Source: Vineibacter terrae (GTDB lineage: Bacteria > Pseudomonadota > Alphaproteobacteria > Reyranellales > Reyranellaceae). From it: 64,000 nucleotides of DNA. The stretch covers positions 1 to 64,000 of the forward strand of contig NZ_VDUZ01000044.1 in the NCBI RefSeq assembly GCF_008039615.1, read 5' to 3'. Within the stretch, counting starts at the first letter, position 1. Every line of letters begins with the position of its first letter. Positions 10,530 to 26,895 of the stretch are shown here, in pieces. Under the pieces are notes generated by a model. The model made no database searches. It had not been told where the DNA came from and saw only the letters and a list, made by a program, of their open reading frames with translations. The position numbers were made by a program, and so were the translations under genes.

Positions 10530-11387
10530 ATGGCGCGCACGCCGGCGAAATCGAATCTGTCGAAGAAGTCGCGAAAGATGCCTCGCCATCCGCGGCGCGA
10601 CCTGGATCTCGAAGGCAGCGACCCCCGGATCGTGACCACGCTGGCCCGCGGCCTGCGCGTGCTGCGCGCCTTTCACGCTCACGACGAGCAGCCCCTGGGC
10701 AACAAGGAGCTGGCCGAGCGGACGGGCTTGGCGAAGGCGACCGTCTCCCGCCTGACATACACCCTGACGCAGCTCGGCTTCCTGTCTCAGGATGCCCGCA
10801 GCGGCGCCTATGCGCTGGCTGCCGGCGTGCTGGCGCCGGCCTACACGTTCCTGTCGCGTCTCGATATTCGGCGCGTCGCGCGTCCCTACATGCAGAAGCT
10901 GGCGATCCAGCCCGGCGTGACCGTCTCGCTGGCGACGCGCCACGAGCTGAGGATGACGGCGATTGAATCGGTCGTCGCCGAATCCGTGGTCCCGCATGCC
11001 GGCCTGTTCGGGGGCCGCGCGCCGATCGCGCGGACCGCCATCGGTCACGCCTATCTTGCCGGCCTCAAGCCCGACGCGCGCGAGCAGCTGATGGCTGAGC
11101 TGCGGGACCACTATGCCGGTGATTGGGCGACGATCGGTCCACGCATCCAGCGCGACATCAGGACGATCGAGAGGAAGGGCTACTGCGTCGTGCTGGGTGA
11201 ATGGACACCGAGCATCAGCGGTGTCGCCGTTCCCATCGTTGTCGACGACGACGGATTGGTCCTGTCGATGAGCGCGGGGGGGCCGGCCAAGCTGCTGTCG
11301 GCCGACCTGCTCGAGGAGCTTGGCATCATGTTGCGCGATGTGCGCCGCGAGCTTGAACGCGCCGTGGGCCGCCCCATCCGCGAGTAG
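10530..11387 (+). CDS. IclR-family transcriptional regulator
   Basis: A 285-residue IclR-type regulator. An N-terminal basic tail of about 35 residues leads into the winged helix-turn-helix (NKELAERTGLAKATVSRLTYTL, in part, near residues 65-90). The C-terminal effector domain (RPYMQKLAIQ ... GVAVPIV) follows. The ATG at 10530 is preceded by GGGGGA at about 10 bp; a GTG at 10500 is possible but gives no family homology. It is divergent from the livHMGF operon and next to a palindrome shared with other units of the island, so it is the natural regulator of all four. The effector is probably the imported acid or its CoA ester (inference). Confidence 0.92.
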   Translation: MARTPAKSNLSKKSRKMPRHPRRDLDLEGSDPRIVTTLARGLRVLRAFHAHDEQPLGNKELAERTGLAKATVSRLTYTLTQLGFLSQDARSGAYALAAGVLAPAYTFLSRLDIRRVARPYMQKLAIQPGVTVSLATRHELRMTAIESVVAESVVPHAGLFGGRAPIARTAIGHAYLAGLKPDAREQLMAELRDHYAGDWATIGPRIQRDIRTIERKGYCVVLGEWTPSISGVAVPIVVDDDGLVLSMSAGGPAKLLSADLLEELGIMLRDVRRELERAVGRPIRE

Positions 11388-11417
11388 TACCTGGAATCGC
11401 TGGCCGCTGATACACCC

Positions 11418-11502
11418 GTCATCCCGAGCGCAGCGAGGGATCTCCCGCGAGGGACGCACCGTGCACCATTCGCGGGAGATCCCTCGCTGCGCTCGGGATG
11501 AC
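11418..11502. repeat. REP-like hairpin with 32-bp perfect arms (family 1)
   Basis: Arms at 11418-11449 and 11471-11502 are exact reverse complements; each contains CCCGAGCGCAGCGAGGGATC. They are separated by a 21-base loop. Related copies occur at 14321, 17019, 36075 and 42329, with half copies near 104 and 20472. It lies between the convergent iclR-type and ligase-2 genes, where it could also serve as a transcription barrier. Confidence 0.9.
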
Positions 11503-11573
11503 GGTCACGCCTTACCTTCCACCGATACTCGGTACTAAATATCGACGATGACGGATTTATCGGGGCGCAGAAA

Positions 11574-13205
11574 TCAACGTTTCACCGTGACGCCGGCTTT
11601 CTCGCGGTCCCAGACCTGGCCGAGCCGTTCCTCGGCCGATTGCTTCAGCACGCTCTTCTGCACCTTCTCCGTCATTGTCTTGGGCAGGGCGGGCAGGAAT
11701 TCCAGGAAGCGGGGAACCATGAAGTAGGACATGTTCGCTTCGCAGAAGCGCACAAGCTCGACCGGATCGAGCGTCTGGCCCGGACGGCACACCACGCTCG
11801 CCATCACCTCGTCCTCCGACATCTCGGAGCGCACGGGATAGACCGCGACTTCCATCACGGCCGGATGCCGGCCGATGACCTGCTCCACCTCCCAGGACGA
11901 GATGTTCTCGCCGCGACGGCGGATCGCGTCCTTCTTGCGGTCGACAAAGAAGAGATAGCCATCCTCGTCGAGCATGCCGCGGTCCCCGGTGTGGAACCAG
12001 CCGCCCCGGTTCGCATCGGCATTCGCTTCCGGCATCTTGTAGTAGCCGCGACCGCCAAGCACGGGATTGTCGCTGCGCATGCAGATCTCGCCGGCAACCC
12101 CGGGGCCGACGATACGGTCGTCGTCGTCCATGATGACGAGCTCGACATCGGGCCGCGGCTTGCCCGCCGACCGGTACTTCGAGGCCGGATAGCCTGGCTG
12201 AAGGAACGTGCCCTGTCCGAAGTCGGTCAGTGAATACGATGAGACGATCTCGACGCCGAAGCGCTCGGCGAATTGCGGCGCGAACTCGGCGACCGGCACC
12301 ATGTTGACGCGATGGACCTTGTGATCGCGATCGCCAGGGCTGGCGGGCTGGCCCCACAGGATATTGGTCATCGAGCTCAGCAGGTTGAACTGGGTCACGC
12401 CATGGCGGCGGATCTCGTCCCAGTAGGCGCGCGCCGAGAAGCGGCGCGACAATGCCAGCGTCGCGTCCGCCGCAAGCGCCGGCATCGACGCGGCACCCAT
12501 GGCATTGCCGTGGAACAACGGCAGGCAGGTGTAGATCACGTCGTCCTTCTGGTAGCCGATATACTGCGCCCGGCCGATCGAGAAAGCCCAGCTTCCGGCA
12601 TTGGATCGCACGACGCCCTTGGAGGGGCCGGTCGTGCCCGACGTGTAGAAGATGCCGTGCGGCTCATGTATGTCCACGGCCACGCCCGGCGGTCGGTCGG
12701 CGCCGCCCTCGAGCTCGGGATAGGCCAGGATCGATACGCCCGGCAGCTTCGGCGGTTCGGCTGGCGGCACCCCCGGCTCGTCGATGATGACGACACGTGC
12801 CACCCGGGGTGCGCGCTCAGCGACCTCGAGGTATCGCGCCAGGGATTCGCTGCCGACCATGATCGCCGTCGAATCCGACTGGTCCAGGAAGTACAGGAGC
12901 AGGTCGCCTTTCGTGGCGGTGTTGACCGGCACGACCACGGCGCCGATCTTGCCCAGGGCGTAGGTCAGGAACAGCGTTTCGGGACAGTTCCCCATCAGGA
13001 TGGCGACGTGATCGCCGGTCCTGATGCCGAACGCCAGCAAGGCGTTGGCGATGCGGTTGGTGCGGCTGTCGAGATCGGCGTAGGAATACGACTTGTCCTC
13101 GAACAGCAGGTAGGGCTTGTCGCCGTTTCGGGCCGCCGCCCGGGCCAGGATCCGGTCGAAGGTGAGATCCTCGGCAGCGATATCGATGTCGCGCAGCGCT
13201 TTCAT
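11574..13205 (-). CDS. Acyl-CoA ligase of the AMP-binding (ANL) superfamily, copy 2
   Basis: A 543-residue paralogue of the ligase at 2183-3817. It has the AMP-binding loop YTSGTTGPSKGV, the hinge HTGDRGMLDEDGYLFFVDRKKD and RRGENISSWEVEQ, all intact. The ATG at 13205 follows AAGGGAG at a suitable distance. It is the second gene after a Bug receptor (13221-14183, 15-bp gap), whereas in copy 1 the ligase precedes the receptor. Two related but distinct ligases suggest that two acids, or two steps of one pathway, need CoA activation. Confidence 0.9.
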   Translation of the reverse strand: MKALRDIDIAAEDLTFDRILARAAARNGDKPYLLFEDKSYSYADLDSRTNRIANALLAFGIRTGDHVAILMGNCPETLFLTYALGKIGAVVVPVNTATKGDLLLYFLDQSDSTAIMVGSESLARYLEVAERAPRVARVVIIDEPGVPPAEPPKLPGVSILAYPELEGGADRPPGVAVDIHEPHGIFYTSGTTGPSKGVVRSNAGSWAFSIGRAQYIGYQKDDVIYTCLPLFHGNAMGAASMPALAADATLALSRRFSARAYWDEIRRHGVTQFNLLSSMTNILWGQPASPGDRDHKVHRVNMVPVAEFAPQFAERFGVEIVSSYSLTDFGQGTFLQPGYPASKYRSAGKPRPDVELVIMDDDDRIVGPGVAGEICMRSDNPVLGGRGYYKMPEANADANRGGWFHTGDRGMLDEDGYLFFVDRKKDAIRRRGENISSWEVEQVIGRHPAVMEVAVYPVRSEMSEDEVMASVVCRPGQTLDPVELVRFCEANMSYFMVPRFLEFLPALPKTMTEKVQKSVLKQSAEERLGQVWDREKAGVTVKR

Positions 13206-14489: not shown

Positions 14490-15548
14490 CTAGCCGTCCG
14501 GGTAGTCGTGCCGCTCGCCGCGGAAATCGGTAACCGCGCGGCGGCCGTCGCTGTCGGCGTCGCTCACATAGCTCGGGCCGATCGGGCTCTTGCCGTGGCC
14601 GCCGGGGATGTCCAGCACATAGGTCGGCTGGCAGAGGCCCGAGAGGCGGCCGCGCAAGGCGCGCATCAAGGCCTGGCCTTCGTCGATCGGCAGGCGGAAG
14701 TGGCTGGTGCCGCGCGCCAGGTCGGGATGATGCAGGTAGTAGGGCCGCACGCGCGCGGCGACCAGGGCGCGGAACAGCGCCTCGAGCGCCTCGACCGAAT
14801 CGTTGACGCCGCGCAGCAGCACGCTCTGCGACAGCAGCACGATGCCGGCGTCGGCCAGGCGGGCCAGGCAGGCGCGGGCCGCCGGCGTCAGCTCGCGGGC
14901 GTGATTGCAATGCACCCCGACATAGACGGCAGCGCGCCTGGCCTTCAGCGCGTCGACCACGGCGGTGTCGACCCGCGCCGGGTCGACCACCGGCACGCGG
15001 GTATGAAAGCGGATCACCGCGACATGCGCGATCGCGTCCAAGGCCTCGACGATGCGTGCGATGCGCCGCGGCGAGAGCATGAACGGATCGCCGCCGGTGA
15101 TGATCACCTCCCAGATCTGCGGCCGGGCGGCGATGTAGGCCAGGGCCGCCTCGAATTCGGCCTCATTCAGCGCCGCGCCGCCGGGGCCAACCTGCTCGCG
15201 GCGGAAGCAGAAGCGGCAATACACCGGGCACGTATGCAGTGGCTTCAGCAGCACCCGATCGGGATAGCGATGCACGATGCCCTTGACCGGCGCATAGGCG
15301 TGATCGCCGATGGGATCGTCCCGCTCCTCGGGCGTGGTCGTCGCCTCCTGCGCCGTGGGGATGAACTGCCGGGCGATCGGGTCGTCGGCCGGCGTGCCCT
15401 CGATCAGGTCGAGCACGTCAGGCGTCACCGCGATGGCATAGTCAAGCGCAACCTGCGCCAGCGCCGGGTCGGCGAGGGCGGTGCGGGGCAAGGTGCCGGC
15501 CTCGACGAGGTCGGCGAGGCTGCGGGCGGTGGTCGGAGCGCGGGTCAT
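14490..15548 (-). CDS. Radical SAM lysine 2,3-aminomutase family protein (KamA/EpmB type)
   Basis: A 352-residue radical SAM, PLP-dependent aminomutase. The iron-sulfur cluster motif CPVYCRFCFRR (CxxxCxxC) is near residue 108. The segment IITGGDPFMLSP and a C-terminal IPGGHGKSPIGP carrying the likely PLP lysine are present. Such enzymes convert L-lysine to beta-lysine, either as free amino acid or for modification of elongation factor P. The length is between EpmB and classical KamA. No efp or epmA gene is beside it here, so the exact role is open. It appears to be a single-gene unit. Confidence 0.88.
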   Translation of the reverse strand: MTRAPTTARSLADLVEAGTLPRTALADPALAQVALDYAIAVTPDVLDLIEGTPADDPIARQFIPTAQEATTTPEERDDPIGDHAYAPVKGIVHRYPDRVLLKPLHTCPVYCRFCFRREQVGPGGAALNEAEFEAALAYIAARPQIWEVIITGGDPFMLSPRRIARIVEALDAIAHVAVIRFHTRVPVVDPARVDTAVVDALKARRAAVYVGVHCNHARELTPAARACLARLADAGIVLLSQSVLLRGVNDSVEALEALFRALVAARVRPYYLHHPDLARGTSHFRLPIDEGQALMRALRGRLSGLCQPTYVLDIPGGHGKSPIGPSYVSDADSDGRRAVTDFRGERHDYPDG

Positions 15549-15633
15549 GGGGGCCGTCGGCCTTCAACGCCCATTCCGGGCCAGCGTCAAGGCCCCATGC
15601 CACCGCGGGCCCCGTGTCCCGCTGCCGCGGCCG

Positions 15634-16941
15634 TCATCTTGCGTGCCGTCCGGTGAACGGATTCCAGCCCAGGGCGGCGAGGGCGGTCCACGCCGTGGCC
15701 CCCAGGTGCGGGCGATTGAAATAGAAGAAATCGGGCGTCCGGCTGTCGGGCCCGATGGTGAGGCCCGTCGTGAGACGCGCTGCTGGCGTGGCGAGGAGCC
15801 AGCCGCCCGCGGCGCGATGCGCACGCAGGCCGGCAAGCAATTCCGCGGCCCGCGCCGGGTGCCCTGTCGCCTGCAACGTCAGCGCGGCCTGCGCCGTGCC
15901 TTCGACCCACAATCCATCGCGATCGTTGTCGAAGTCATACCCGCCCGGGACCGCGAAGCGCCGTTCGACGCAGCCCAAGGTCGGCGACCAGGCCGGCGCG
16001 GCGTCGAGCAGCAGGTGGGGCCAGAGCTGCGTGTCGAGCGCCAGGTGTCCCGCATCGGCCATCGGTCCCAGGGGCAGTGGGCCGGCGGCCAGGTCGGCGC
16101 CCGGGAATGCCGGCACCGTGCCAAGAACGAAGCAGCCGATGTCGCCTGCCAGCGCGGCGTCAAGGAAGCCGCGCGCCGCCTTCGCCATGTCGGCCATGCG
16201 CGCGTCGCCGCTGATGCGCGCATGCCAGCCGGCAGCGGCGGCGATATCCACGTTGTGCTCGGTCGAAGCCCAGCCGAGGCGCACCTGCGCGGGATCGTAG
16301 CCATACAGGCCGCCTGTGAATCCGACCCCGCCGGCGGCACGTGTGTGCGACTCGATCCAGCCCAACGCCCGCCGCGCGACGGCAAGATCGTCGGTGTTCC
16401 CGGTCGCCTGATGGAGCGTCAGAGACGCCAGCGCCACCCAGGCGACGTTCCCTGTCGCGCTGCCGTCCTGGTATGGGTCTTCCGCCCACCGGGCGGCCGC
16501 GGCATCCCACCAGCCCGGCAGCAAGGCCGCCTCGTTGGTTCGCACCGCGCCAGCCCGATAGGCGTTGCGCACGCGTCCGTCACGGAAGCTGCGATCATTG
16601 TCGAGCGCATGAACGAACGCCGCGCCGATGCGCCGGGCGCGGTCCGTATCGCCGCACGCGACGAGCGCAATGATCGCCAGCGCGTTATCGTAGGTGAACG
16701 CGGTGCTGCGCAACGCCAGCGGCACCTCGCGTTCCTTTGGACCCGGTTGGTAGCTTGCGATGAACAGGGGCCCAGCGCCGGTGGCCGTCGCGTCGACTGA
16801 AGTTGCCAGTGCGGCGCAAAGCTCGCGCGCAAGGACCGGCGCCGTCGGCGCCGCGTGCCCGGTTCGTGCGCCGCCGGCAAGGATGCCGAGCGCAAGGACG
16901 CATAACGACAGGACGCTTCCCGGCTTAAGCGGCACGCGCAC
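15634..16941 (-). CDS. Exported protein, probable six-hairpin (alpha/alpha toroid) glycosidase-like
   Basis: A 435-residue protein with a signal peptide of about 30 residues (ending TGHAAP). The body is rich in paired helices with repeats of the type ALxxLxLxxATG..., AYRAGAVRTNE and LYGYDPAQVRLGWASTEHNVD. This resembles six-hairpin glycosidase-like proteins annotated in alphaproteobacteria as hypothetical or carbohydrate-acting. The conserved STEHN segment near the middle may be functional. No catalytic acids can be named with confidence. It stands alone between the aminomutase and dienelactone hydrolase genes. Confidence 0.7.
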   Translation of the reverse strand: MRVPLKPGSVLSLCVLALGILAGGARTGHAAPTAPVLARELCAALATSVDATATGAGPLFIASYQPGPKEREVPLALRSTAFTYDNALAIIALVACGDTDRARRIGAAFVHALDNDRSFRDGRVRNAYRAGAVRTNEAALLPGWWDAAAARWAEDPYQDGSATGNVAWVALASLTLHQATGNTDDLAVARRALGWIESHTRAAGGVGFTGGLYGYDPAQVRLGWASTEHNVDIAAAAGWHARISGDARMADMAKAARGFLDAALAGDIGCFVLGTVPAFPGADLAAGPLPLGPMADAGHLALDTQLWPHLLLDAAPAWSPTLGCVERRFAVPGGYDFDNDRDGLWVEGTAQAALTLQATGHPARAAELLAGLRAHRAAGGWLLATPAARLTTGLTIGPDSRTPDFFYFNRPHLGATAWTALAALGWNPFTGRHAR

Positions 16942-17018
16942 GACCCCTCATGGGCCTGTGGTCTGCGGATAGCCGTGGGCGCACCCCGCTCGGCAGGGCG
17001 ATCGCATATGGCCCTGCT

Positions 17019-17104
17019 GTCATCCCGAGCGCAGCGAGGGATCTCCTGCGGCAAGGCGCACGGTGCGCCATGCGCGGGAGATCCCTCGCTGCGCTCGGGA
17101 TGAC
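17019..17104. repeat. REP-like hairpin (family 1)
   Basis: Long inverted repeat with arms beginning GTCATCCCGAGCGCAGCGAG and ending in its complement. The loop GGCGCACGGTGCGCC is itself palindromic. It lies between two genes on the minus strand (the six-hairpin-type gene and dienelactone hydrolase 1). Confidence 0.88.
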
Positions 17105-17151
17105 GGGAAGGGGGCCGCGCGGATATCGCTGTCGCGTGGGACCAGGCGCCC

Positions 17152-17868
17152 TTACGCCAATGCCTTCTTGAACAGGTCCAGCGTGCGGCCGTTGGCGAGC
17201 TTGCAGCTGGCTTCGTTGTAGTGCTGGCCGCCGACGCGGCAGAAGGCATGGTCGTCGTTGGCATAGCCGTGGACCGTGACGTGCGGGTTGTCCTTCAGCC
17301 CGTCGCGGATCTTCTTCTGCGTGTCCGGCGGCACGAAGCCATCCTTCTCGGCGATATGCAGGATAGTCGGGTTCTGCAGGCCCTTGGCGTCGTCGAGCTT
17401 GCCGTCGATGCCGACGCCGTAATACGCCGCGCCCGCCTCGGCGTCGGAATGGCACATCATCATGTAGGTGAGGAAGCCGCCCAGGCAGTAGCCGGTGACG
17501 CCGACCTTGCCGGTGCAGCCGGCCGTGGCGCGCAGGAAGGCGAGCGACACCTTGAGGTCGTCGATGCCCTTGGCCTGATCGAAGCCCTTGTAGAGCGCGA
17601 AGGCCTGGTTCCATTCGTCCTGGCTCTGGTCGGTGATGTCGACGCCTTCCTCCTGGCGCCAGAAGATGTCCGGCGACAGCGCCACGTAGCCTTGCGCCGC
17701 CCACGAATCACAGATGTCGCGCATCACCTTGTTGACGCCGAAGATCTCCTGGATCACCAGCACGCCCGGCCCGCTGCCGCTCTTGGGCTTGGCGAGATAG
17801 CCGCCCATCTTGCCGTCGCGCAGGCGGATCGATGTGTTGAGATGCGGGTTGGGCATCGGATGCTCCAT
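17152..17868 (-). CDS. Dienelactone hydrolase family protein, copy 1
   Basis: A 238-residue alpha/beta hydrolase. The nucleophile motif GYCLGG (cysteine nucleophile, as in classical dienelactone hydrolase) is near residue 125, IQEIFGVN supplies the usual glutamate region, and DDHAFCR holds the catalytic histidine region. It may open dienelactones or related esters in the cytoplasm. The ATG at 17868 is preceded by AAGGAA; an ATG at 17856 is also possible. It is a separate unit, read toward the repeat at 17019. Confidence 0.88.
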   Translation of the reverse strand: MEHPMPNPHLNTSIRLRDGKMGGYLAKPKSGSGPGVLVIQEIFGVNKVMRDICDSWAAQGYVALSPDIFWRQEEGVDITDQSQDEWNQAFALYKGFDQAKGIDDLKVSLAFLRATAGCTGKVGVTGYCLGGFLTYMMMCHSDAEAGAAYYGVGIDGKLDDAKGLQNPTILHIAEKDGFVPPDTQKKIRDGLKDNPHVTVHGYANDDHAFCRVGGQHYNEASCKLANGRTLDLFKKALA

Positions 17869-17962
17869 TGCCGGTGTTCCTTGGAAGCCGCGACGGTAGC
17901 GTGCCGCGTGTGGCAAGTCATCCCCTGCGGACACCCCATCGCGTCGCGAAGCGGTCGTGGCG

Positions 17963-20308
17963 TCATCCTGCCAGCCTTTCGAGATCCGCGAGGTCTTCGC
18001 GACGCTGCTTCACCCGTCGGTCGTAGGCGGCCTGGTTCTTTGTGCAAATGAGGCTGTAGGGCCGGCCGCGTCGTTCGGTTTTCACGTCCAGGTCGCACCT
18101 TGCGTGGCGAATGGCATCTTCGACATGGCGGCGGTCAGGTTCGGCAGCCCTGAGGATCCACGTCCTCTCCATGGGATGAACGAGAAAGCGATTCACCTCG
18201 GCGCAGTTGCGGCATTTGCAGCCGATCGTGCCGTCCCGGCTCCAGTCCTTCGGAGCCTCCAGCGGCTTCGCGATGCGCGTGCGCAGGTGCTCGACGCAGA
18301 TCGCGTGCAGCTGCTGAACGGCCGCCGATCCATTGATCTCGGGCATGTCGATCAGCTTTCGGAACGCGGGGACCAGGATGGCATCAAGGCTGTAGGTGCT
18401 GCGCCAGTTCAGGATGTGGTCTGCTGCGCGTGCCGCCAGGGCATCGCCAACGGGCACGACGCCCGCAAAAAGATCGACGATGAGCTGGGGCTGCACCGTG
18501 CGACCGCCTGGCCAGCTATCCGGCCTCCAGTCATTCTCCAGCCAGCCATCCTCCTCCTCCTCCTCCTCCTCCTCATCATCATCGCTTTCTGCTTTCGGGG
18601 GCAGGTCACCACCCGGCAGCGCGTCGATCAGCGCAGCGGCCGCGCCAGAGTAGGCAGAACGGCCCGGAGACAGTATTGCGACGACGCGCGCCAGCAACGC
18701 GGCACAGGCATCGAGCGACAACCTCGCGGCCCCGGCGATGATGCGCTCGGTCAAGGCCGCGATTCGATCCGGCGAGAGCAGGCCGAGCGCACCGAGGACC
18801 GCATCGTTGTCGCTCTTGTCGAAACCATGGACGACGATACCCGACAGGAATGCCTCGACATGCGCCCCGTCATGGAGACGGGTCAGCACGGCCAGCATTT
18901 GAGCGATTTCGCTCGGCGCCTTGTTTTGCCGCGGATACCAGTGGCGTGACGGCCATGTGGACAGCATGTGTCCGGCGAGCTCATGCGCCTGATCCCACAG
19001 TGGCGCTTGCCGATCCGCACCATCGGTGGCCCAGCGTTCGGCCAGGTCGGCCAGGTCGGCCAGATACGGCAGAGTGACCGCTAGCCCAGCCTGGTTCAGA
19101 ACAGCGAAGGTCCGCTCGCTGGGCCACATGACCAGCGCTGCCCGACTGTAGGTCCGTTCGAAGGTGGCACCTTCGTTGCCGGTCGCCTCGGTGAAATCCT
19201 CGTCGTCGGGCTCCATGTCGTCGAAGGCATCCGGCGGAGAGAGCTCCTCGTCTTCGATCGGGAGCGCGGCCAGCGTTGGCCGGCTGCCGTCCGGCCGCCG
19301 CCATTCCGACAGGGTCGCGTATCGATTGTCGACTTCACCAGCCGCCAGATCCGGCTCGCGCCAGCGACCCCTGTACCCGCCATTGTCGACGTATTCGGCG
19401 GTGCCGCTTTCCTCGATCGACACAAGCGCCGTGTACAGGTCGCAACCGGCCTGCGACGCCGCGGCAACGAGCACGCGCGCCACGGCGGCGTCCGCTCCCT
19501 TCAAGGTGTCGAACGCCAGCTCTGCCGGTGTGTAGGCATGATCCAGGGGATAGATCACCTTTTCGGGTGTGTGATCGTCCTGAGATCGTTTGCCGGCGCC
19601 CCATGCCCGCAACAGCGCCGCAACGTGAGCCTGCTCGCTCTCGTAGCTGGGAGGCTCGAGCTTCGGTCCCTTGCCCCGACGCACAAGGCTGTAGACCAGC
19701 ACCAGCCGGGATCCCGTCGTGATGGGGAGCACCTCATGGACGCAGTCGGCATAGAAAGCGGCGAACGCCGCCTCCGAAAGGTCTTCGCAGCGCAGGTCGA
19801 GCCGGACTTCGCGGTCCTTGTGTCGAACGACGAGTTCGCCACCTGTCGACTCGGATGGCAGCGCGACCACGAGGGTCGCGAACATGCCGGGCACCTTCTC
19901 GGTGTCGCGATGACTCACGAAGAAGCTGCCCTGGTCATAAACCAGAAGCTTGTAGAATTCGGCGGCGATGCCATCGCCCGTTCCAAGCCCGTCCGCGACA
20001 CGGGCCAGGATCGCCTCCAATGTGCCTGCCCAGTGCTTGCCGCCAAGCCGCACCCGGTCCGGGGCGATTTGCCAGGTGCGGCGGACCGTGGTGTCGACGA
20101 GGGTTTCCTCGCCGCGGCCATAGGGCGCGCGCTCGGCGACGGCGATGAGCTGCTCGGCCTGGATCGGCAGAAGCGGGAAGGCAATGGTGCCGACGCCGTC
20201 GACGTCCAGGCGCGGTGGCGGGCTGTCGACCGTTCCGGAAGCGAAGAAATCTCCGGGCCGCCGGACAGTGCGCAGCACGGCGGCGAGTTCAGTGGTGATG
20301 GATGACAT
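17963..20308 (-). CDS. Large 2OG-Fe(II) oxygenase-like protein with long C-terminal region
   Basis: A 781-residue protein. The N-terminal 240 residues look like a prolyl-4-hydroxylase-type jelly roll: FFVSHRDTEK (HxD iron ligands), GMFATLVVALPSES, GGELVV, a distal CVHEV histidine and GSRLVLVYSLVRR, which supplies the 2-oxoglutarate-binding arginine. The remaining 540 residues are largely helical, contain a run of eight glutamates (encoded by an eight-unit CTC microsatellite at 18551-18574) and end in a basic, cysteine-containing region (GCKCRNCAEVNRF). Such fusions are annotated as hypothetical 2OG oxygenases; target and role are unknown. It has no operon partner. ATG 20308 is chosen because homology begins soon after; an upstream in-frame start at 20341 exists. 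Confidence 0.75.
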   Translation of the reverse strand: MSSITTELAAVLRTVRRPGDFFASGTVDSPPPRLDVDGVGTIAFPLLPIQAEQLIAVAERAPYGRGEETLVDTTVRRTWQIAPDRVRLGGKHWAGTLEAILARVADGLGTGDGIAAEFYKLLVYDQGSFFVSHRDTEKVPGMFATLVVALPSESTGGELVVRHKDREVRLDLRCEDLSEAAFAAFYADCVHEVLPITTGSRLVLVYSLVRRGKGPKLEPPSYESEQAHVAALLRAWGAGKRSQDDHTPEKVIYPLDHAYTPAELAFDTLKGADAAVARVLVAAASQAGCDLYTALVSIEESGTAEYVDNGGYRGRWREPDLAAGEVDNRYATLSEWRRPDGSRPTLAALPIEDEELSPPDAFDDMEPDDEDFTEATGNEGATFERTYSRAALVMWPSERTFAVLNQAGLAVTLPYLADLADLAERWATDGADRQAPLWDQAHELAGHMLSTWPSRHWYPRQNKAPSEIAQMLAVLTRLHDGAHVEAFLSGIVVHGFDKSDNDAVLGALGLLSPDRIAALTERIIAGAARLSLDACAALLARVVAILSPGRSAYSGAAAALIDALPGGDLPPKAESDDDEEEEEEEEDGWLENDWRPDSWPGGRTVQPQLIVDLFAGVVPVGDALAARAADHILNWRSTYSLDAILVPAFRKLIDMPEINGSAAVQQLHAICVEHLRTRIAKPLEAPKDWSRDGTIGCKCRNCAEVNRFLVHPMERTWILRAAEPDRRHVEDAIRHARCDLDVKTERRGRPYSLICTKNQAAYDRRVKQRREDLADLERLAG

Positions 20309-20612
20309 GGCATTGCGCTCTCTTCTCGCTGACCCGGGCAACGGGTATCAAGGCAAGGCCAAGCGCTCAATCCCGGCCGAAATTCGTCCCCCTAATCCAC
20401 AAGGCCGACGATGCGCATCCAGACCGGAGCGCGTTTCGGTCGAATGGAACCGCAGTGTCGATTGATCCGCTGTCATCCCGAGCGCAGCGCGGTAACGCGG
20501 GGCAAGCCCCGAAATCGCTCTGAATGCGGTAGCGCGCCCCGGCCGGCGAGTCATCTCGGCCGGCGCCGGTTCCCACCCTCAGTTTCGGTCTTCGACCCGA
20601 AGCCGTCGCCTC
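20309..20612. other. Gene-free interval with fragments of repeats
   Basis: No gene is supported. Positions 20472-20489 carry a partial family-1 repeat arm (TCATCCCGAGCGCAGCG). Positions 20378-20409 match 24 of 32 bases of 21918-21949, which lies next to a remnant resembling the oxygenase gene. Confidence 0.5.
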
Positions 20613-20918
20613 TCACGCCGTGCGAACGAGGCTGAGCGCGGCGCCTTTGCCCCGCACTTCCGCCTCTTCGAGCTCGGCGGCGGCAATGGCGCGATCGAGC
20701 GCGGCGCGCAGCGCCTTGGCCGTCTCCAGCGTCAGCTCGACACCGGCCCGCGCCCCGGGGTCGAGATCCGTGTTGATGAAGTCGAGCGTGATGACGTCGC
20801 CCAGCGGCGCATGTCGCGCATGGTCATAGGCAACCACCGCCTGCGATAGCGGGAACCATTCGTTTCCGCGCTTTGCCATGCCCTGCGCGCGGGCGATCTC
20901 GACAATAGCCGTGCACAT
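20613..20918 (-). CDS. Small conserved protein of unknown function
   Basis: A 101-residue protein beginning MCTAIVEIARAQGMAKRGNE, then WFPLSQAVVAYDHARHAPLGD and DFINTDLDPGARAGVELT, and ending in helices. I recall a small family with this MCT...YDH pattern (possibly DUF6295) but cannot verify it. The ATG at 20918 follows GGAGG at 7 bp. It starts 11 bp after the stop of the dienelactone hydrolase 2 gene in the same direction, so they probably form a two-gene operon. Confidence 0.75.
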   Translation of the reverse strand: MCTAIVEIARAQGMAKRGNEWFPLSQAVVAYDHARHAPLGDVITLDFINTDLDPGARAGVELTLETAKALRAALDRAIAAAELEEAEVRGKGAALSLVRTA

Positions 20919-20929
20919 GTCCGAGCCTC

Positions 20930-21682
20930 CTACGTCGCCAGATGCTTGCCGAAGAAGGCGAACACCTTGCCCCAGCCATCCATGGCCTGCTCGGGCCGGT
21001 AGAGGGGCCGGTGCCAATAGAAGATGCCGTGGCCGGCACCGTCGTAGCGGTAGAATTCGTGTGCCTTGCCGTGCTTCTTGAGCTCGGCCTCGTGCTGGTT
21101 CACCTGCTCGGGGCTCGGCGCGCGGTCGTCGTTGCCGAAGAGGCCGAGCAGCGGGCAGCACAGGTCCTTCGTCATCTCGATCGGTGCGACGGGTGTCTTG
21201 GCGTTGAGCTCCTCCTGGCCCATCACCACGCGGCCGCCCCACAATTCGGCGCAGGCATCGACGTCCTGGCGCTGGCAAGCATAGATGAAGGCGTGCCGGC
21301 CACCGGAACAGGAGCCGAAAAGGCCGACCTTGCCGTTGTGATTGGACTGCGCCCGCATCCACTTCACGGCGGCCTCCGTGTCGCCGACCATCTGGGCATC
21401 GGCAATGCCGCCCCCGGCGCGCACCTTGGCGGCGACGTCGTCGGGGTTGGCCTGGCCGCCCTCGCGCTCATAAAGATTGGCGCAGATCGCGAGATAGCCG
21501 TGATGCGCGAACCGGCGCGTCGTCTCGATGTAGAACTCGCTCCAGCCCGGGAGATGGTGGACGAGCACGACGCCCGGGAAGGCGCCCGGACCAGACGGCT
21601 TGGCCACGTAGGCGGTGATCGGGGTTCCTTTGTCGCCGTTGATGGTCACGTTCTCGCAGGTCATGCCTCGGTAGAATGACAT
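20930..21682 (-). CDS. Dienelactone hydrolase family protein, copy 2
   Basis: A 250-residue alpha/beta hydrolase. The nucleophile elbow reads GSCSGGR; LVHHLPGW (oxyanion region), FGNDDRAPSP (acid) and GAGHGIFYWHRP (histidine) complete the set. It differs from copy 1 and belongs to the group acting on varied carboxyl esters. It precedes the small protein gene at 20613 in one likely operon. Confidence 0.88.
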   Translation of the reverse strand: MSFYRGMTCENVTINGDKGTPITAYVAKPSGPGAFPGVVLVHHLPGWSEFYIETTRRFAHHGYLAICANLYEREGGQANPDDVAAKVRAGGGIADAQMVGDTEAAVKWMRAQSNHNGKVGLFGSCSGGRHAFIYACQRQDVDACAELWGGRVVMGQEELNAKTPVAPIEMTKDLCCPLLGLFGNDDRAPSPEQVNQHEAELKKHGKAHEFYRYDGAGHGIFYWHRPLYRPEQAMDGWGKVFAFFGKHLAT

Positions 21683-21874
21683 CGATTTCCTCCATTGAGC
21701 GTGAGCCCGGGCCGTTCACCGGGGCATCGGAGCGCCGCGCGATCATCGATACGGGGGGCGCGGTCCCTTTGCGGCCGGAGCCCGTCGCACGGATGAGTAT
21801 TTGACGATCGTCCGCCAGGCGCAACAGGAGGCAGCCGAGCTGCTCGACCGTCTGGAACGACATGACAGCACGAC

Positions 21875-21949
21875 GGTTGCGAATATGCCCGCATCTTCTC
21901 GGTGTCGCGATGGCGTCTGAGATTCGTTCCCTCGATCCACAACGCCGGC
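21875..21949 (-). pseudogene. Probable remnant of a 2OG-Fe(II) oxygenase gene copy
   Basis: Positions 21875-21912 match 19873-19912 inside the oxygenase gene almost base for base (shared CTTCTCGGTGTCGCGATG), encoding RHRDTEK against SHRDTEK, the iron-binding HxD segment. Directly next to it, 21918-21949 matches the region upstream of the oxygenase gene (20378-20409, 24 of 32 bases). The rest of the 21683-21982 interval has no gene. The simplest reading is a deleted duplicate of the oxygenase locus. Confidence 0.45.
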
Positions 21950-21982
21950 CGCGCGCCGATCGGCGCGAAGCCGAAGCCGTGC

Positions 21983-22414
21983 TCAGCCGGTGCCGATCGC
22001 GAAGCGATACTGGCGGCCGTGCTTCTTTCCGAAACGCAGGATCCGCTCATCGTAGGTGACCAGCGGGCAGTCGAACTCGATCGCCGTGGCGATCAGAAGC
22101 CGGTCAGCCAGGTCACGGTGCTCCAGGTGATGAAGCTGATAGGCACGGCAGGCCGCTGTGTGGGTCAGCGGCGCGGCTTCGATCCCGGGGACGTCCGTGA
22201 AGCGCTTCACCCAGGCATCGACCGGACTGTCGAGATCGATTCGCCCCGTGTCGACAAGCAGCGCAATCTCCCACGTTGTGACGGCGCTCAGGATGATGGT
22301 TCCACCGCCATGCCAGCAACCGTCGATCAGCGCCTGCGTCGAACGGCGCAGGCGGCTATCGCCGCTGTCGAGCCAAAGGGCGATGTGTGTGTCGAGCAGA
22401 AGGGCATTTTTCAC
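21983..22414 (-). CDS. PIN-domain toxin, VapC type
   Basis: A 143-residue PIN-domain protein starting ALLLDTHIALWLDSGD, with the acidic metal-binding residues in LDTH, WEIA, DLADRLLIATA and VTYDE. Such proteins are ribonucleases held in check by the product of the preceding gene. Its start overlaps the antitoxin stop by four bases, which ties translation of the two together. Confidence 0.9.
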   Translation of the reverse strand: MKNALLLDTHIALWLDSGDSRLRRSTQALIDGCWHGGGTIILSAVTTWEIALLVDTGRIDLDSPVDAWVKRFTDVPGIEAAPLTHTAACRAYQLHHLEHRDLADRLLIATAIEFDCPLVTYDERILRFGKKHGRQYRFAIGTG

Positions 22415-22665
22415 CGGTCGATCTCTCGGCCAGTCTCGGCATCGGGTTCGACATCCAGCACCGGTGCAAGAAGATCCACGCCTTCGCGAACCCGCACCGA
22501 TTCGCGATGAGCGCCGAACAGGGAGCCGGCGCGGGCGTTCTGCTCGAGCAGCTGCCGCATGGCCAGGGCTACCGCCTCGGTCTTGTTGCCGCCGGTCAAC
22601 TTTCGCGCCGCGTCCTCGATGAGGGCGACGACCTCAGGCCGGTTGATGGTGACCACGTTCGCCAT
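22411..22665 (-). CDS. VapB-type antitoxin (PSK/RHH-like)
   Basis: An 84-residue protein starting MANVVTINRPEVVALIEDAA with GNKTEAVALAMRQLLEQN, the pattern of Rv0623/PSK-type VapB antitoxins: a short DNA-binding N-terminus and an acidic toxin-binding tail (LLAPVLDVEPDAE). The start at 22665 follows GAGG. The operator lies immediately upstream (22677-22703). Longer upstream reading is non-coding. Confidence 0.88.
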   Translation of the reverse strand: MANVVTINRPEVVALIEDAARKLTGGNKTEAVALAMRQLLEQNARAGSLFGAHRESVRVREGVDLLAPVLDVEPDAETGREIDR

Positions 22666-22676
22666 GGCAACCTCGA

Positions 22677-22703
22677 TAATGATATCATTACTTATATAAT
22701 GAT
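22677..22703. promoter_or_regulatory. Operator of the VapBC-type operon
   Basis: A perfect 14-bp palindrome TAATGAT/ATCATTA (22677-22690). The octamer ATAATGAT recurs at 22676 and 22696, exactly 20 bp apart, in an AT-rich island ending 11 bp before the antitoxin start. The layout fits cooperative autoregulation by the antitoxin-toxin complex. Confidence 0.65.
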
Positions 22704-22822
22704 CAATGTCGGGACTGCAAGCGGTCGACGACTGCCACGCCGAAGCGACGGGCGGTCTCCGCTGCTCGACCCCGCGGACGTCGCCCTGCCGAGCAGCACG
22801 ACCGCGCCAAGTCGGCATGTCG

Positions 22823-22902
22823 CTTAGACGAAGAATCAAGGGAATTCCAATCGCGATCGAAGACGGCTGCAAGGTCTTCCGGCCGAAGATCCGCCATCCT
22901 CC
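22823..22902 (+). promoter_or_regulatory. Three-part promoter element, copy A
   Basis: Box 1 is CTTAGACGAAGAATCAAG at 22823, box 2 GCAAGGTCTTCCGGCCG at 22869, and box 3 CCGCCATCCTCC at 22891. Offsets 0/46/68 are identical to copies at 25250 and 31283. The start codon of the small exported protein follows 36 bp after box 3. Confidence 0.65.
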
Positions 22903-22938
22903 GCCCGCTCGAAACACGGCACGACGCGGAGAATGAAC

Positions 22939-23490
22939 ATGAAGATCCTCGTCAACAGGCTTCGTCAAGAAGGCCATGAGGCCGTGGCCGTGTCGACGAA
23001 CCTTGGTATCTGCGCAGCAGTGTTGGCGGCTGTTTGCATCAGCGCGGCACCCGCCCCTGACGCCGCTGGCGGCAGGTCGGGAGTGACGCTCGTCCATGAC
23101 AAGCGCGGCAGCTTTTCATCTGTGTGCGCGGAGTCGACGCCTGCCTTCACCGACGTGACGGTCCGCGAGGCCTTGATGCGCGCCACTCTCCACGAGATCG
23201 ACCAGCAGGCTTCTGGTTCGGCCACGGTTGGCTCGGCCGCGGTTTTGAGCCTGTCCGGGCGCGCCCTGCAGATCCAGGCCGGCACGGCCCCGCGTCGTCA
23301 ACAAGGGCGGGGCGTGCGCGCCCTCCTGAGGGCAATCCAGACGATATTTCACCTAGCACGAACGGCCTGCCTCGCGATGGTCGAGCGCCTTTCGCTCTCC
23401 GCGGCCCCGCGACGGCGAACTCTTGCGTCCGTCAGCCTCGCCAACAGGGGCGCTCTGACCGTCCGCGCCGGCGGGTCGGATGCGGTTTAA
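22939..23490 (+). CDS. Small protein of unknown function, possibly exported
   Basis: A 183-residue reading frame starting MKILVNRLRQEGHEAVAVST, with a hydrophobic segment (LGICAAVLAAVCISAAPAP) that could be a signal peptide or membrane anchor. The rest is basic and low in recognisable motifs. Start 22939 has GGAG 7 bp upstream; an ATG at 22933 is in frame. I do not recognise the family. Its coding status rests mainly on the ribosome site and on the shared promoter element upstream (copy A), which elsewhere precedes real genes. Confidence 0.4.
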   Translation: MKILVNRLRQEGHEAVAVSTNLGICAAVLAAVCISAAPAPDAAGGRSGVTLVHDKRGSFSSVCAESTPAFTDVTVREALMRATLHEIDQQASGSATVGSAAVLSLSGRALQIQAGTAPRRQQGRGVRALLRAIQTIFHLARTACLAMVERLSLSAAPRRRTLASVSLANRGALTVRAGGSDAV

Positions 23491-23611
23491 CGCCGGTCGA
23501 ACGTTTATCGGGCCCATTTGTGAACAAAACGCCCTGAGGCCCGTTGCTGGCGGGATCGCAGAGGACGCTCGGTGATCGACGATCTCGCACCCAGCCGGCC
23601 AGCCCCGGCCC

Positions 23612-25195
23612 TCACGCTGGCAGCCCCGCTCTTCGCAGGCCTTCGACGAACGTGTCGAGATCCTCCGGTCGCCGGAGCACGACCCAATCCTCGACGTCCG
23701 CGAGCCGCAACGCAGGGGCGAGACGGCGCACATGCTGCATCGCTCGGCGCGCATCGTCCATCCGGCCGGCAAGGGCGTGGCTCGCGGCGCCGAAGGCGAA
23801 CACCCGCAGGACGTCGGGCAGCTCCCTGGATGCCTTTTCCGCCCACGCCGACGCCATGTCGAAGCGTCCGGCGAACATGTGTGCCATCGCCGTGCCGGTC
23901 TGCATCTGGAATGTCTCGGGATCCAGCGGGCTCAAGCGCATGGCGCGCGCAAAGCGCTCAACCGCGTCGTCAGGCTCGCCGCACGAGATCCGCTGGAAAC
24001 CGCTGAGATACCAGGCGATCGTCAGGTTGGGATTGAGCACCAGGGCGCGGTCGACCGCGGCGATGCCTTTGTCGAGATCGCCGCCGAAATGGGCCAGCGC
24101 ATGCCCGCCGCGCGTGAGGGCAACCGCATCGCTGGCGCCCAGCTCGATCGCGCGGTTGGCCAGCCGCGCGCCCTCGGCATAGTCCCGCACGCGGTCGCGG
24201 ATCCAGCCATTCATCTTGCGCCAGTAAAGGCACCACGCCGCCATGCCATAGGCCGACGCGAAAGCGGGATCGAGCTCTATCGCCCTGTAGAACAACGCCA
24301 GTGCGGCGCTGATACCCTCGCTGGTTGCCTGGTGGAAGCTCGCCATGCCGCGCAGATAGTAGTCATAGGCACCGAGATTGTCGGTCGGCTTGCGCAGCGC
24401 GCGCTGGATTTCGGCTCGTTCCACGCGTGGCGCGATGGCGGCGACGACACTCTGGGCCAGCTGATCCTGCAGCTCGAAGATGTCGTCCAGCGCGCTTTCG
24501 AAACGGTCCGTCCAGAGATTTGTCCCGGTCGCCGCGCTGACGAGCTGTCCGGTGATGCGAACCCGGTTCGCTGCCTTGCGCACGCTGCCTTCCAGCACAT
24601 AGCGCACGCCCAGCTCGCGGCCGACCTCCTTCAGGTCTACCGCCCGGCCCTTGTAGACGAAGCTCGAGTTGCGCGCGATCACGAACAGCCAGCGATGGCG
24701 TGACAGCGCGGTAACGATGTCCTCCACCACGCCGTCGGCGAAGTACTCCTGCTCGGGATCGCCGCTCAGGTTCTGGAACGCCAGCACGGCGATTGACGGC
24801 TTGTCGGGAAGAGCCAGCACAGGTGCCGATATTTCGGTCGATCCGGCGGGCTCGGTCGCGAGGGAGCTGCCGCCATCTTGGGCCGGGAGGTCCCTGATAT
24901 CGCCAACAAACCGGAACCCTTTGCGGGCGACTGTCCGGATCAGGCGCTGCGCCTCGCCGCTGTCACCGATCGCCCGGCGCACCGCATTGATATGGCTGGT
25001 CAGCGTCGATTCGGAGACGATCCGCCCATCCCACACCGCGTCCAGCAGGTCGTCCTTGCTGACGACGCGGTCGCGGTGCTGCACCAGGTAGACCAGCAGG
25101 TCGAAGACCTTGGGCCCGACGGCGACCGTCGCGGCCCCGCGCGTGAGCTCCCGTCGCTCGGGGTCGAGCACATAGTCCTCGAACGCATACTGCAC
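23612..25195 (-). CDS. Winged-helix / TolB-like / TPR transcriptional regulator, copy 1
   Basis: A 527-residue regulator. Residues 1-105 form an OmpR/CadC-type winged helix (VGPKVFDLLVYLVQHRDRVV ... RKGFRFVG). A TolB-like segment follows near residues 130-260 (PDKPSIAVLAFQNLSGDPEQ, YFADGVVEDI, YVLEGSVRK). TPR repeats run from about 270 to the C-terminus. This architecture is common in alphaproteobacteria, often as one-component regulators of unknown ligand. It is divergent from the kinase/efflux operon at 25365, with promoter element copy B in the shared 169-bp region, so it is a candidate regulator of that element. It is about 60% similar by eye to the gene at 36335-37921. Confidence 0.88.
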   Translation of the reverse strand: MQYAFEDYVLDPERRELTRGAATVAVGPKVFDLLVYLVQHRDRVVSKDDLLDAVWDGRIVSESTLTSHINAVRRAIGDSGEAQRLIRTVARKGFRFVGDIRDLPAQDGGSSLATEPAGSTEISAPVLALPDKPSIAVLAFQNLSGDPEQEYFADGVVEDIVTALSRHRWLFVIARNSSFVYKGRAVDLKEVGRELGVRYVLEGSVRKAANRVRITGQLVSAATGTNLWTDRFESALDDIFELQDQLAQSVVAAIAPRVERAEIQRALRKPTDNLGAYDYYLRGMASFHQATSEGISAALALFYRAIELDPAFASAYGMAAWCLYWRKMNGWIRDRVRDYAEGARLANRAIELGASDAVALTRGGHALAHFGGDLDKGIAAVDRALVLNPNLTIAWYLSGFQRISCGEPDDAVERFARAMRLSPLDPETFQMQTGTAMAHMFAGRFDMASAWAEKASRELPDVLRVFAFGAASHALAGRMDDARRAMQHVRRLAPALRLADVEDWVVLRRPEDLDTFVEGLRRAGLPA

Positions 25196-25249
25196 GCCAG
25201 CCCTCCCTGATCGCCCACGCAGGCATCGGACTGCCGGACCGGCGGGTCG

Positions 25250-25329
25250 CTTGGACGAATAAGCAAGGGAAATTCAATCACAATCAAACGGCGACGCAAG
25301 GTCTTCCGGCCGGCGGTCCGGCATCCTCC
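25250..25329 (+). promoter_or_regulatory. Three-part promoter element, copy B
   Basis: Box 1 is CTTGGACGAATAAGCAAG at 25250, box 2 GCAAGGTCTTCCGGCCG at 25296, and box 3 CCGGCATCCTCC at 25318. The offsets are the same as in copies A and C. The kinase start codon lies 35 bp after box 3, and the divergent regulator gene starts at 25195. Confidence 0.7.
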
Positions 25330-25364
25330 AGCCGCTCGAACACGACACAGGCCGGAGGCACCTC

Positions 25365-26129
25365 ATGAGCCCTCAGCAGAACCTGGCCATCGTCAGCGGC
25401 GCTTCGCAGTCCAACAATGTCGGCATCTTCATGGCTGCCTCGATTGCGCACGAGGTCAACCAGCCCCTGGCCGCGATCGTGGCCAACTCACATGCGTGCC
25501 GACGCTGGCTGTCCGCCGATCCCCCGAATCTCGACCGGGGCAGGACGACGCTGGAGCGGATCATCCGCGACGCCAACGCGGCCGCCGAGCTCATCAGCCG
25601 CATCGGTGGGCTCTTCAGCCGGGGCGGCGCCCGGGCACGAACATCAGTCGATATCAACCAGGTGATCAATGCGGTCTGGCAGTCGATGGCCGATGAGATC
25701 GCGACGAAGAATGTCCGCGTCGTGATCGAGCTCGACCGCGACCTTCCGCCTGCACGCGCCGACCGGATCCAGATCCAGCAGGTCCTCGTCAACCTCATCC
25801 GCAACGCGCTCGATGCGCTCGATACAGGCGCTGACAACGCAAGATCGTTACGGATCCGCTCATTGCGCGACGAGGCCGGCACGATCCGCGTGGAGGTCCG
25901 GGACAACGGGATCGGCCTGAACGAGTTCGAGCAGATCTTCGAGCCGTTCTTCACCACCAAGAAGCACGGCATGGGCATGGGGCTCGCGATCTGCCGTTCA
26001 ATCATCGAGTCCCATGATGGCCGGCTCTGGGCAGCGCCCAACAAGCCGGGCGGGACGACGTTCGTCTTCACGCTGCCGGATCACGCCAGCGATGCCGAGG
26101 CGCTGCGTGCCAGTCATGGAGCCCAATGA
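25365..26129 (+). CDS. Soluble sensor histidine kinase without a sensor domain
   Basis: A 254-residue kinase core. The phosphoacceptor helix ASIAHEVNQPLAAIVANSHA is near residue 25, the N box NLIRNALDAL near 145, DNGIGL (G1), FEPFFTTK (F box) and GMGMGLAI (G2) follow. There is no membrane segment or PAS/GAF input domain: only about 20 residues precede the H box. Input must come from a partner protein. The HEVNQPL pattern is that of FixL/DctB-type kinases. It is translated just before a FixJ-type regulator, with the stop 1 bp before that start. Confidence 0.92.
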   Translation: MSPQQNLAIVSGASQSNNVGIFMAASIAHEVNQPLAAIVANSHACRRWLSADPPNLDRGRTTLERIIRDANAAAELISRIGGLFSRGGARARTSVDINQVINAVWQSMADEIATKNVRVVIELDRDLPPARADRIQIQQVLVNLIRNALDALDTGADNARSLRIRSLRDEAGTIRVEVRDNGIGLNEFEQIFEPFFTTKKHGMGMGLAICRSIIESHDGRLWAAPNKPGGTTFVFTLPDHASDAEALRASHGAQ

Positions 26130-26130
26130 C

Positions 26131-26895
26131 ATGACAAACGACGCTTCCAGGCTCCTGCCGCGCCATCAGTCTGGCTTGCCGGCGAGCGGTGGCGAACCGG
26201 AGTGCCCCCTCGTGTTGATTGTCGACGACGATGAGGCGGTCCGGACCGCGCTTCAGGAGCTCCTTCTCTCGGTGGGTCTCGACGCGACCTGCTTCGCATC
26301 GACGCGCGAGTTGCTGGGCGCCCGGCTTCCGGCAAGGCCTGGCTGCCTGATCCTCGACATCCGCATGCCGGGATTGAGCGGCCTGGATTTCCAGCAGCAT
26401 CTCGCATCGAGCGGCAACAGGAAGCCGATCATCTTCCTCTCCGGCCATGCCGACGTCGCGATGACGGTCAAGGCCATGAAAGCCGGTGCCGTCGACTTCC
26501 TCACGAAGCCGGTGCCTGAACAGGGGTTGCTCGACGCCGTGTCCGCCGGAATTGCAAGGGACATCGCGCAGCGGGCCGAGGATCGCATCGTCAAGCTGCA
26601 TGTCGAACGGTTTGCCACGCTGACCCCGCGTGAGCGCCAGGTTCTGCATGCGCTGGCCTACGGGCGGATCAACAAGCAGATCGCTTTCGACCTGGGAATC
26701 AGCGAGGTCACCGTCAAGCTCCACCGCGGCAACGTCATGCGGAAGATGCAGGCGGCGTCCGTCGGACAGCTTGTACGCACTTGGGAATCGATGCCCATCG
26801 AGCTTCGCGACGGACCGTTGGATGACTGCATCCATGGTCGGCGATCCGGCATCTGCCGCCCACTCGAGCACAACATCAGCTGGAGGAACATATGA
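26131..26895 (+). CDS. FixJ/NarL-type response regulator
   Basis: A 254-residue regulator. The receiver domain has acidic pocket VDDDE, phosphoacceptor LILDIRMPG and switch lysine FLTKP (residues about 25-140). A LuxR-type helix-turn-helix follows (LTPRERQVLHALAYGRINKQ ... VKLHRGNVMRKM, to about 225). The last 25 residues are unusual: they are encoded by sequence closely matching the leader of promoter element B, so the gene's tail doubles as the leader of the next gene. Start 26131 follows GGAG at 9 bp; an ATG at 26116 overlaps the kinase gene. The stop overlaps the hlyD-type start (ATGA). Confidence 0.92.
   Translation: MTNDASRLLPRHQSGLPASGGEPECPLVLIVDDDEAVRTALQELLLSVGLDATCFASTRELLGARLPARPGCLILDIRMPGLSGLDFQQHLASSGNRKPIIFLSGHADVAMTVKAMKAGAVDFLTKPVPEQGLLDAVSAGIARDIAQRAEDRIVKLHVERFATLTPRERQVLHALAYGRINKQIAFDLGISEVTVKLHRGNVMRKMQAASVGQLVRTWESMPIELRDGPLDDCIHGRRSGICRPLEHNISWRNI
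26846..26891 (+). promoter_or_regulatory. Partial copy of the box-3 leader in front of the HlyD-type gene
   Basis: CCGGCATCTGCC at 26846-26857 and the following bases up to the start codon match the box-3 leader of copy B (CTCGA-CAC core, GGAGG before the ATG). The distance from box 3 to the start codon is the same. Boxes 1 and 2 are missing. It lies wholly inside the response regulator coding region. Confidence 0.5.

Follow-up and report, generated by a model that had tools for sequence, protein, structure and literature searches.

A conserved but uncharacterised 2OG-Fe(II) oxygenase of Vineibacter terrae with a second alpha/beta domain, a helical arm, and a small C-terminal domain

The window, a stretch of 64,000 nucleotides from a Vineibacter terrae contig, contains a 781-residue frame whose N-terminal third has the appearance of an iron- and 2-oxoglutarate-dependent oxygenase. 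The locus raises the question of what the remaining two thirds of the protein are and on what kind of substrate such an enzyme would act.

The gene, its surroundings, and its family

The oxygenase frame was read on the minus strand from an ATG at position 20308 to a stop codon ending at 17963, with 0 internal stops. A purine-rich GAGAAGAGAG, which may serve as a ribosome-binding site, preceded the ATG by 9 bases. The gene was single-copy in its own genome. The frame is not a product of chance, since relatives are encoded at 40 more loci in other species and the dN/dS values were 0.05–0.28, and the oxygenase is a conserved but uncharacterised bacterial enzyme. An Rfam search of positions 16900–23700 gave no match. 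The gene-level features were as follows.

17963–20308, minus strand: whole gene of a 781-residue 2OG-Fe(II) oxygenase family protein (open frame, translation, and 40 related loci)
20318–20327, minus strand: purine-rich GAGAAGAGAG, possible ribosome-binding site (read from the sequence)
17923–23577, unstranded: strain-variable block with the oxygenase gene (blastn against contig 8 of a same-genus genome, G002)

When the window was compared with contig 8 of G002 by blastn, matches were obtained at 14490–16830 (78%), 17152–17922 (92%), and 23578–28880 (89%), all on the one contig, and the stretch between these flanking syntenic blocks, positions 17923–23577, was replaced there and had no match as a whole. 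A dienelactone hydrolase gene (17152–17934) was located downstream of the oxygenase gene, 28 bases apart, and a DUF6295 gene, a second dienelactone hydrolase gene, and a PIN-domain/antitoxin-like pair were located upstream. An operon with the downstream hydrolase was rejected, because close relatives keep the hydrolase without the oxygenase. The oxygenase gene was absent from three other genomes of the genus, save one weak match at E 3.9e-4. The GC content at the third codon position was 0.77 in the oxygenase gene vs 0.88–0.89 in the two neighbouring dienelactone hydrolase genes, a compositional difference that is a weak sign of recent arrival.

Two further observations were made in this region. 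The DUF6295 gene (20613–20918) adjoins the second dienelactone hydrolase gene (20930–21682), and the pair (20613–21695) moves together, being located on a different contig in G002. Short stretches at 22821–23090 and 25250–25357 matched several places in the G002 region (72–80%) and seem to be copies of a dispersed repeat close to where the variable block ends.

The 40 further loci were found in a species-genome scan with identities of 35–60%, and came from Alpha-, Beta-, and Gammaproteobacteria and one Acidobacteria metagenome-assembled genome (MAG). Including the window, 35 of 41 loci were full-length; loci L030, L031, and L041 were partial, and the frames of L032, L036, and L037 were broken. 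Alignment A1 contained 34 rows, as it also omits L018, which scores the same as L019. A distant branch was composed of Streptomyces plasmid proteins (31.8% identity) and small-genome members of the window's class. Similar long proteins presumably exist in fungi. Public records already annotate members as '2OG-Fe(II) oxygenase'.

A family match at E ≤ 0.001 was obtained in 9 of 101 relatives, two of them weak, and in 10 of 398 genomes of the phylum, one of them weak, the own genome being included in both counts; the weak matches lay near the threshold (E 3.9e-4 to 8.7e-4). The family was found on 23 of 72,556 plasmid records. A search of 50,697 phage records with two family members as queries found nothing, and four viral_contigs scans likewise gave no family match. 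Within genera, its presence was patchy. The family is rare and patchy, lies in the variable part of genomes, and is often plasmid-borne. In a tree of the A1 rows and one Streptomyces row, the sequences were grouped largely by class, with 4 class changes vs the least possible 2. This small number of changes makes exchange across classes look limited and argues against very free spread. Broken copies were common (L032, L036, L037, G004, and a truncated plasmid copy). They also include an in-frame copy without residues 50–364, observed in G148 (contig 165, 824–2140; L116/L075) as one 445-residue frame, in which the catalytic core and most of the second domain were gone. The G148 genome was rated 99% complete, and this copy is either a natural core-less variant or an assembly collapse.

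Architecture of the protein

The protein was composed of an oxygenase core, a second alpha/beta domain, a helical arm interrupted by an acidic linker, and a small C-terminal domain. The features are given below.

19676–20248, minus strand: double-stranded beta-helix 2OG-Fe(II) oxygenase core, residues 21–211 (Pfam PF13640, AlphaFold2, and fold comparison)
19904–19912, minus strand: H133-R134-D135, first two predicted iron ligands (invariant in 34/34; HQD in the distant branch)
19736–19738, minus strand: H191, predicted distal iron ligand (invariant in 34/34)
19706–19708, minus strand: R201, predicted 2-oxoglutarate anchor, 10 residues past H191 (invariant in 34/34)
19121–19675, minus strand: second alpha/beta domain with two long helices and five strands, residues 212–396 (AlphaFold2; no PDB relative found)
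19121–19189, minus strand: EATGNEG...Y..AA...WP signature, residues 374–396 (conservation in 35 full-length members)
18239–19120, minus strand: helical-repeat (solenoid-like) region, residues 397–690 (helical in the AlphaFold2 model)
18497–18601, minus strand: acidic low-confidence linker within the helical region, residues 570–604 (pLDDT and identity)
17966–18238, minus strand: small C-terminal alpha/beta domain, residues 691–781 (model and conservation)
18203–18220, minus strand: C697-K-C-R-N-C702, possible metal site (CxCxxC complete in 32/34 rows)

Pfam named the core only, as 2OG-FeII_Oxy_3 (PF13640; E 2.7e-7, residues 120–205). The score of 31.9 bits was above the curated cut-off of 27, and this profile was matched by all 34 family members at the E-value limit used. 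The NCBIfam profile PRK05467 (PKHD-type) covered residues 124–206 below its threshold (16.7 bits vs a cut-off of 143). Residues His133, Asp135, His191, and Arg201 were identical in 35/35 full-length members and in 34/34 rows of A1. In the distant branch HQD replaced HRD, and the H, D, distal H, and R were retained in three distant relatives. The full iron and 2-oxoglutarate binding pattern (HRD, distal His, and Arg) described in an earlier note on this sequence was thus confirmed, and the loss of iron ligands that the note had allowed for was seen in none of the 35 full-length members. The core almost certainly represents an active-type 2OG oxygenase.

The AlphaFold2 model of the whole protein, built with the 34 family rows, had a pLDDT of 85.6 and a pTM of 0.72. 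When this model was compared with the PDB by VIA, the top Z was 13.5, with the Shewanella protein 3dkq (rmsd 3.2, 151 aligned). Among the matches listed were B. pseudomallei 6n1f (Z 13.2), PiuC 9ghl (12.9), PHD2 6yw3 (12.9), the P. putida EF-Tu prolyl hydroxylase 4iw3 (12.4), AlkB 4nih and 3bkz (12.3; rmsd 3.2, 156 aligned), and SnoN (12.0), with differences of about one unit counted as ties. The best two entries in Foldseek were those of the P. putida EF-Tu prolyl hydroxylase. The listed solved structures matched the whole model mainly via the core. PADLOC '2OG' profiles labelled CRISPR-associated were matched by 34/34 members; the coverage was restricted to the core, and the CRISPR-associated identity was judged generic. 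At L041 (701–1444), a frame of ~247 residues had 60% identity to residues 1–211 only, with contig remaining beyond it, and is either a core-only copy or a frame break.

In the model, the two helices of the second domain spanned residues 223–239 and 271–287, and the five strands spanned residues 251–254, 289–306, 321–337, 369–374, and 381–396. Residues 212–402 modelled alone gave a pLDDT of 88.5 and a pTM of 0.82. When the isolated domain was compared with the PDB, 995 chains were aligned, 10 of them at Z ≥ 2 with a best Z of 2.9, and no relative was found; its profile had no match among PDB sequences at E up to 10. In the viral library the matches were weak, with a best E of 5.6e-4 (TM 0.34) and 0.019 for Terrestrivirus. 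Residues Glu374, Gly377, Asn378, Gly380, Tyr387, Trp395, and Pro396, which include the GN motif of the domain, were invariant in 35/35 full-length members, and the distant branch had EYEGYxGNxG...WYxRAA as its version of the signature. Residues Lys270, Asp273, Glu325, Glu355, Asn378, and Tyr387 were invariant across 37/37 rows of alignment A3.

The helical region was the least conserved structured part. The mean pairwise identity over the 34 rows was 34% and 40% in its two parts, compared with 63% in the core, 55% in the second domain, and 49% in the C-terminus, and the linker had 17% identity and a pLDDT below 50 at residues 570–602. In five close pairs, the dN/dS values were 0.05–0.20 in the core, 0.10–0.27 in the second domain, 0.20–0.28 in the helical region, and 0.11–0.26 in the C-terminus, which indicates that every part of the protein is kept by purifying selection. 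The C-terminal domain was rich in conserved basic residues and contained an invariant Lys757-Asn758. The cysteine-rich basic end expected from the earlier reading was recognised as the C-K-C-R-N-C motif at residues 697–702. Its CxCxxC pattern was lost in L033 and L029 and complete in the other 32 of 34 rows, so a metal site is possible yet inessential to the family.

The C-terminal two thirds had been taken for one large domain without recognisable relatives. Pfam indeed recognised none of it, whereas the single domain gave way to three pieces. A metabolic domain was detected there neither by Pfam nor by PDB sequence searches. The latter used profiles of the whole protein, the second domain, and the C-terminus and yielded no convincing match, the best being to a stretch of threonyl-tRNA ligase (E 0.12). 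Pfam matches to TetR_C_12 in 6/34 members (best E 0.0013) and to a holin in 2/20 C-terminal pieces (best E 0.0008) were both judged to be chance.

Neighbouring genes and the TOTE primase-helicase

When the flanking frames were compared all-against-all, no universal neighbour and no widely common family were found. A Pfam scan covered 116 neighbours, taken from 34 loci with a maximum of two on each side and selected by crude criteria of length and GC position; among the 25 commonest families, none had more than 4 members (helicases and integrases). The PADLOC matches among neighbours were mostly a generic helicase or ATPase.

One neighbour was recurrent, a primase-helicase whose primase part is the Pfam 'TOTE conflict system, Archaeo-Eukaryotic Primase'. 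The name TOTE is given as TPR, OB, TBP, and Effector in a preprint (PMC12458937), from whose main text the word oxygenase is absent. The TOTE primase-helicase was present in 8 loci of a collection in which 102 of 119 loci showed a family match and many were duplicates or short-flanked. It adjoined the family in the Burkholderiaceae loci L009, L010, L014, and L099, in L038 (a gammaproteobacterial MAG, with the helicase part and a fragment), in L098 (Microvirga VF16), and in L100 and L119 (Streptomyces chartreusis, a distant relative), and hence recurred beside the oxygenase in four separate lineages and two phyla. The TOTE gene and the oxygenase gene were divergently oriented in L038, in L098, and in both Streptomyces loci. 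In L014 the TOTE gene was on the same strand, downstream by ~180 bases, and in L009, L010, and L099 an integrase-like frame lay between the two. The partner was in two pieces in L009 and in three in Streptomyces, and was without the primase middle in L038. There, at 1793–3327, query residues 138–385 of the TOTE-like helicase were missing and the flanking parts were adjacent, which represents either a helicase-only form or a decayed gene.

The TOTE gene was found on 114 of 72,556 plasmid records and, within the phylum, in 12 of 200 genomes. At least 4 of the 23 family plasmid records, among which the gene surroundings were examined for 12, had a TOTE gene within ~2 kb, one of them with a truncated family gene only. 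Independent placement would give ~0.04 such records, an expectation in which clustering in islands is uncontrolled. The TOTE primase had no match in the own genome, the window locus included.

Conflict-type neighbours besides TOTE were single cases or close relatives. A SNF2-type helicase and a SWIM protein were near the oxygenase in two Bradyrhizobium plasmids, a DrmD-like helicase was near L024, and an AAA protein was near L028. In S. chartreusis, genes annotated as TIGR02677/02678/02680 followed the oxygenase; we take TIGR02677–02680 to be Wadjet. On the S. chartreusis plasmids, L119 contained TIGR02678–02680 and DUF2397 genes at 7001–12594, from ~1.4 kb past the oxygenase end.

Proposed function and comparison with known systems

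Our main reading, held tentatively, is that the protein may well be a protein hydroxylase dependent on Fe(II) and 2-oxoglutarate, encoded by an accessory gene that is spread horizontally. As the motif, fold, and invariance suggest, residues His133, Asp135, and His191 would hold the iron and Arg201 would hold 2-oxoglutarate. The second domain would pack beside the core as part of the catalytic unit, since both show conservation even where the other parts lack it. The substrate, which is most probably a protein, would be held close to the iron by the variable helical arm together with the cysteine-bearing end, and one substrate residue would be hydroxylated. The target might be a housekeeping protein or a part of a mobile-element conflict rather than an intermediate of a linked pathway, because there is no universal neighbour and the gene is patchy among close relatives and plasmid-borne. 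A protein or nucleic acid is probably the substrate rather than a food molecule, given the variable genome location, the plasmid carriage, and the predicted conflict genes that are sometimes adjacent. Modification of a protein or nucleic acid, as suggested earlier, is plausible in view of the core, which resembles those of prolyl hydroxylases, PKHD-type enzymes, and AlkB, and also of the helical arm and the absence of a universal pathway neighbour.

The fold favours neither protein nor nucleic acid, because AlkB structures lie within the same VIA tie as protein hydroxylases, and DNA helicase and primase neighbours would equally suit a nucleic-acid substrate. An oxygenase that hydroxylates or demethylates DNA or RNA bases, with the arm and the basic cysteine-bearing end gripping the nucleic acid, would also be consistent with the primase-helicase in four lineages, the adjacent SNF2-type helicase, SWIM protein, and DrmD-like helicase, and the abundance of conserved basic residues in the C-terminal domain. 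However, the 10-residue spacing of His191 and Arg201 suits prolyl hydroxylases and PKHD-type enzymes better than AlkB, judging from the motifs usual in these enzymes, and Pfam recognised no nucleic-acid-binding domain convincingly, and we consider such an activity possible but on the unlikely side. It is highly improbable that the enzyme tailors small molecules or small peptides. SnoN ties at Z 12.0 and small-molecule substrates are known for some enzymes that have this core, but no biosynthetic neighbour was in common in the all-against-all comparison of flanks or in the 25 commonest families of the 116 neighbours, and the 570-residue extra part is unusual for small-molecule tailoring enzymes.

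Cutting across these substrate readings, the enzyme could belong to a mobile-element conflict or defence module with the TOTE-type primase-helicase, where present, and would then act on this partner or on a protein of an invader. The adjacency in four lineages despite the rarity of TOTE, and the TIGR02677/02678/02680 genes that follow in S. chartreusis, point in this direction. TOTE is nevertheless missing at most loci, the window included, and from the own genome; the clustering of accessory genes in islands means that adjacency may be a matter of shared location; and some partner copies (L009, L038, and Streptomyces) are broken. Membership of such a module is doubtful. A more specific proposal, that of an oxygen- and 2-oxoglutarate-dependent conflict-system component on plasmids and islands, a hydroxylase whose second domain would be new and which would switch or disarm the adjacent primase-helicase or an invader protein by modifying it and have its pairing of core and second domain in common with giant-virus oxygenases, seems improbable.

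To our knowledge, known bacterial protein hydroxylases are few and small. In a small open-access literature search, no published description was found of this architecture, of the second domain, or of the association with TOTE. A family of 750–815 residues with its own second domain, arm, and terminal domain is a candidate for oxygen-dependent regulation in mobile-element conflict, on the basis of its plasmid spread and of the repeated presence, in two phyla, of an adjacent primase-helicase predicted to belong to a conflict system. If the protein hydroxylase of our main reading were an accessory housekeeping enzyme, it would still represent an unassigned enzyme family with a domain for which no PDB relative was found.

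Among known systems, the P. putida EF-Tu prolyl 4-hydroxylase (4iw3 and 4j25) and human PHD2 have the oxygenase core fold in common with the V. terrae protein and carry the HxD...H...R ligand set, as here. Their identity to the V. terrae core was about 11–20%, and their chains are ~200 residues long, whereas the V. terrae protein has 570 more. The match to the prolyl 4-hydroxylase core fold (Z 12.4 for 4iw3 and 12.9 for 6yw3) was tied with other subfamilies, including the AlkB-type core (4nih and 3bkz, Z 12.3). The PKHD-type proteins, Shewanella 3dkq and PiuC 9ghl, had the highest VIA Z values (13.5 and 12.9, tied with others), but their chains of 207–234 residues have no room for a second domain, an arm, and a cysteine-bearing end.

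The ribosomal oxygenase OGFOD1/Tpa1 has a core followed by a second beta-rich domain, which is a second beta-helix. The whole model gave a weak whole-length Foldseek match to it (4nhy; E 2.5e-4, 521 columns, TM 0.23 by target), and OGFOD1 was not among the listed PDB matches of the isolated V. terrae second domain. Vaccinia C16 is described (PMC9674614) as a PHD2-like domain with a curved five-stranded domain without relatives, its cofactor residues being lost. By the same description (PMC9674614), poxvirus C4/C16 have, after the core, an antiparallel sheet and two helices, an outline similar to that seen here. A second domain like the C-terminal Ku-binding domain of C4/C16 was considered on account of this description and is kept as a lead only, C16 being missing among the listed PDB matches of the V. 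terrae domain.

The four best viral matches of the whole model were giant-virus Fe2OG proteins, aligned over 359–470 columns with poor rmsd, and a Terrestrivirus protein was aligned beyond the core (E 8.6e-9, 404 columns). Since these alignments are longer than the core, they offer a lead that the pair of core and second domain may exist in giant viruses as well.
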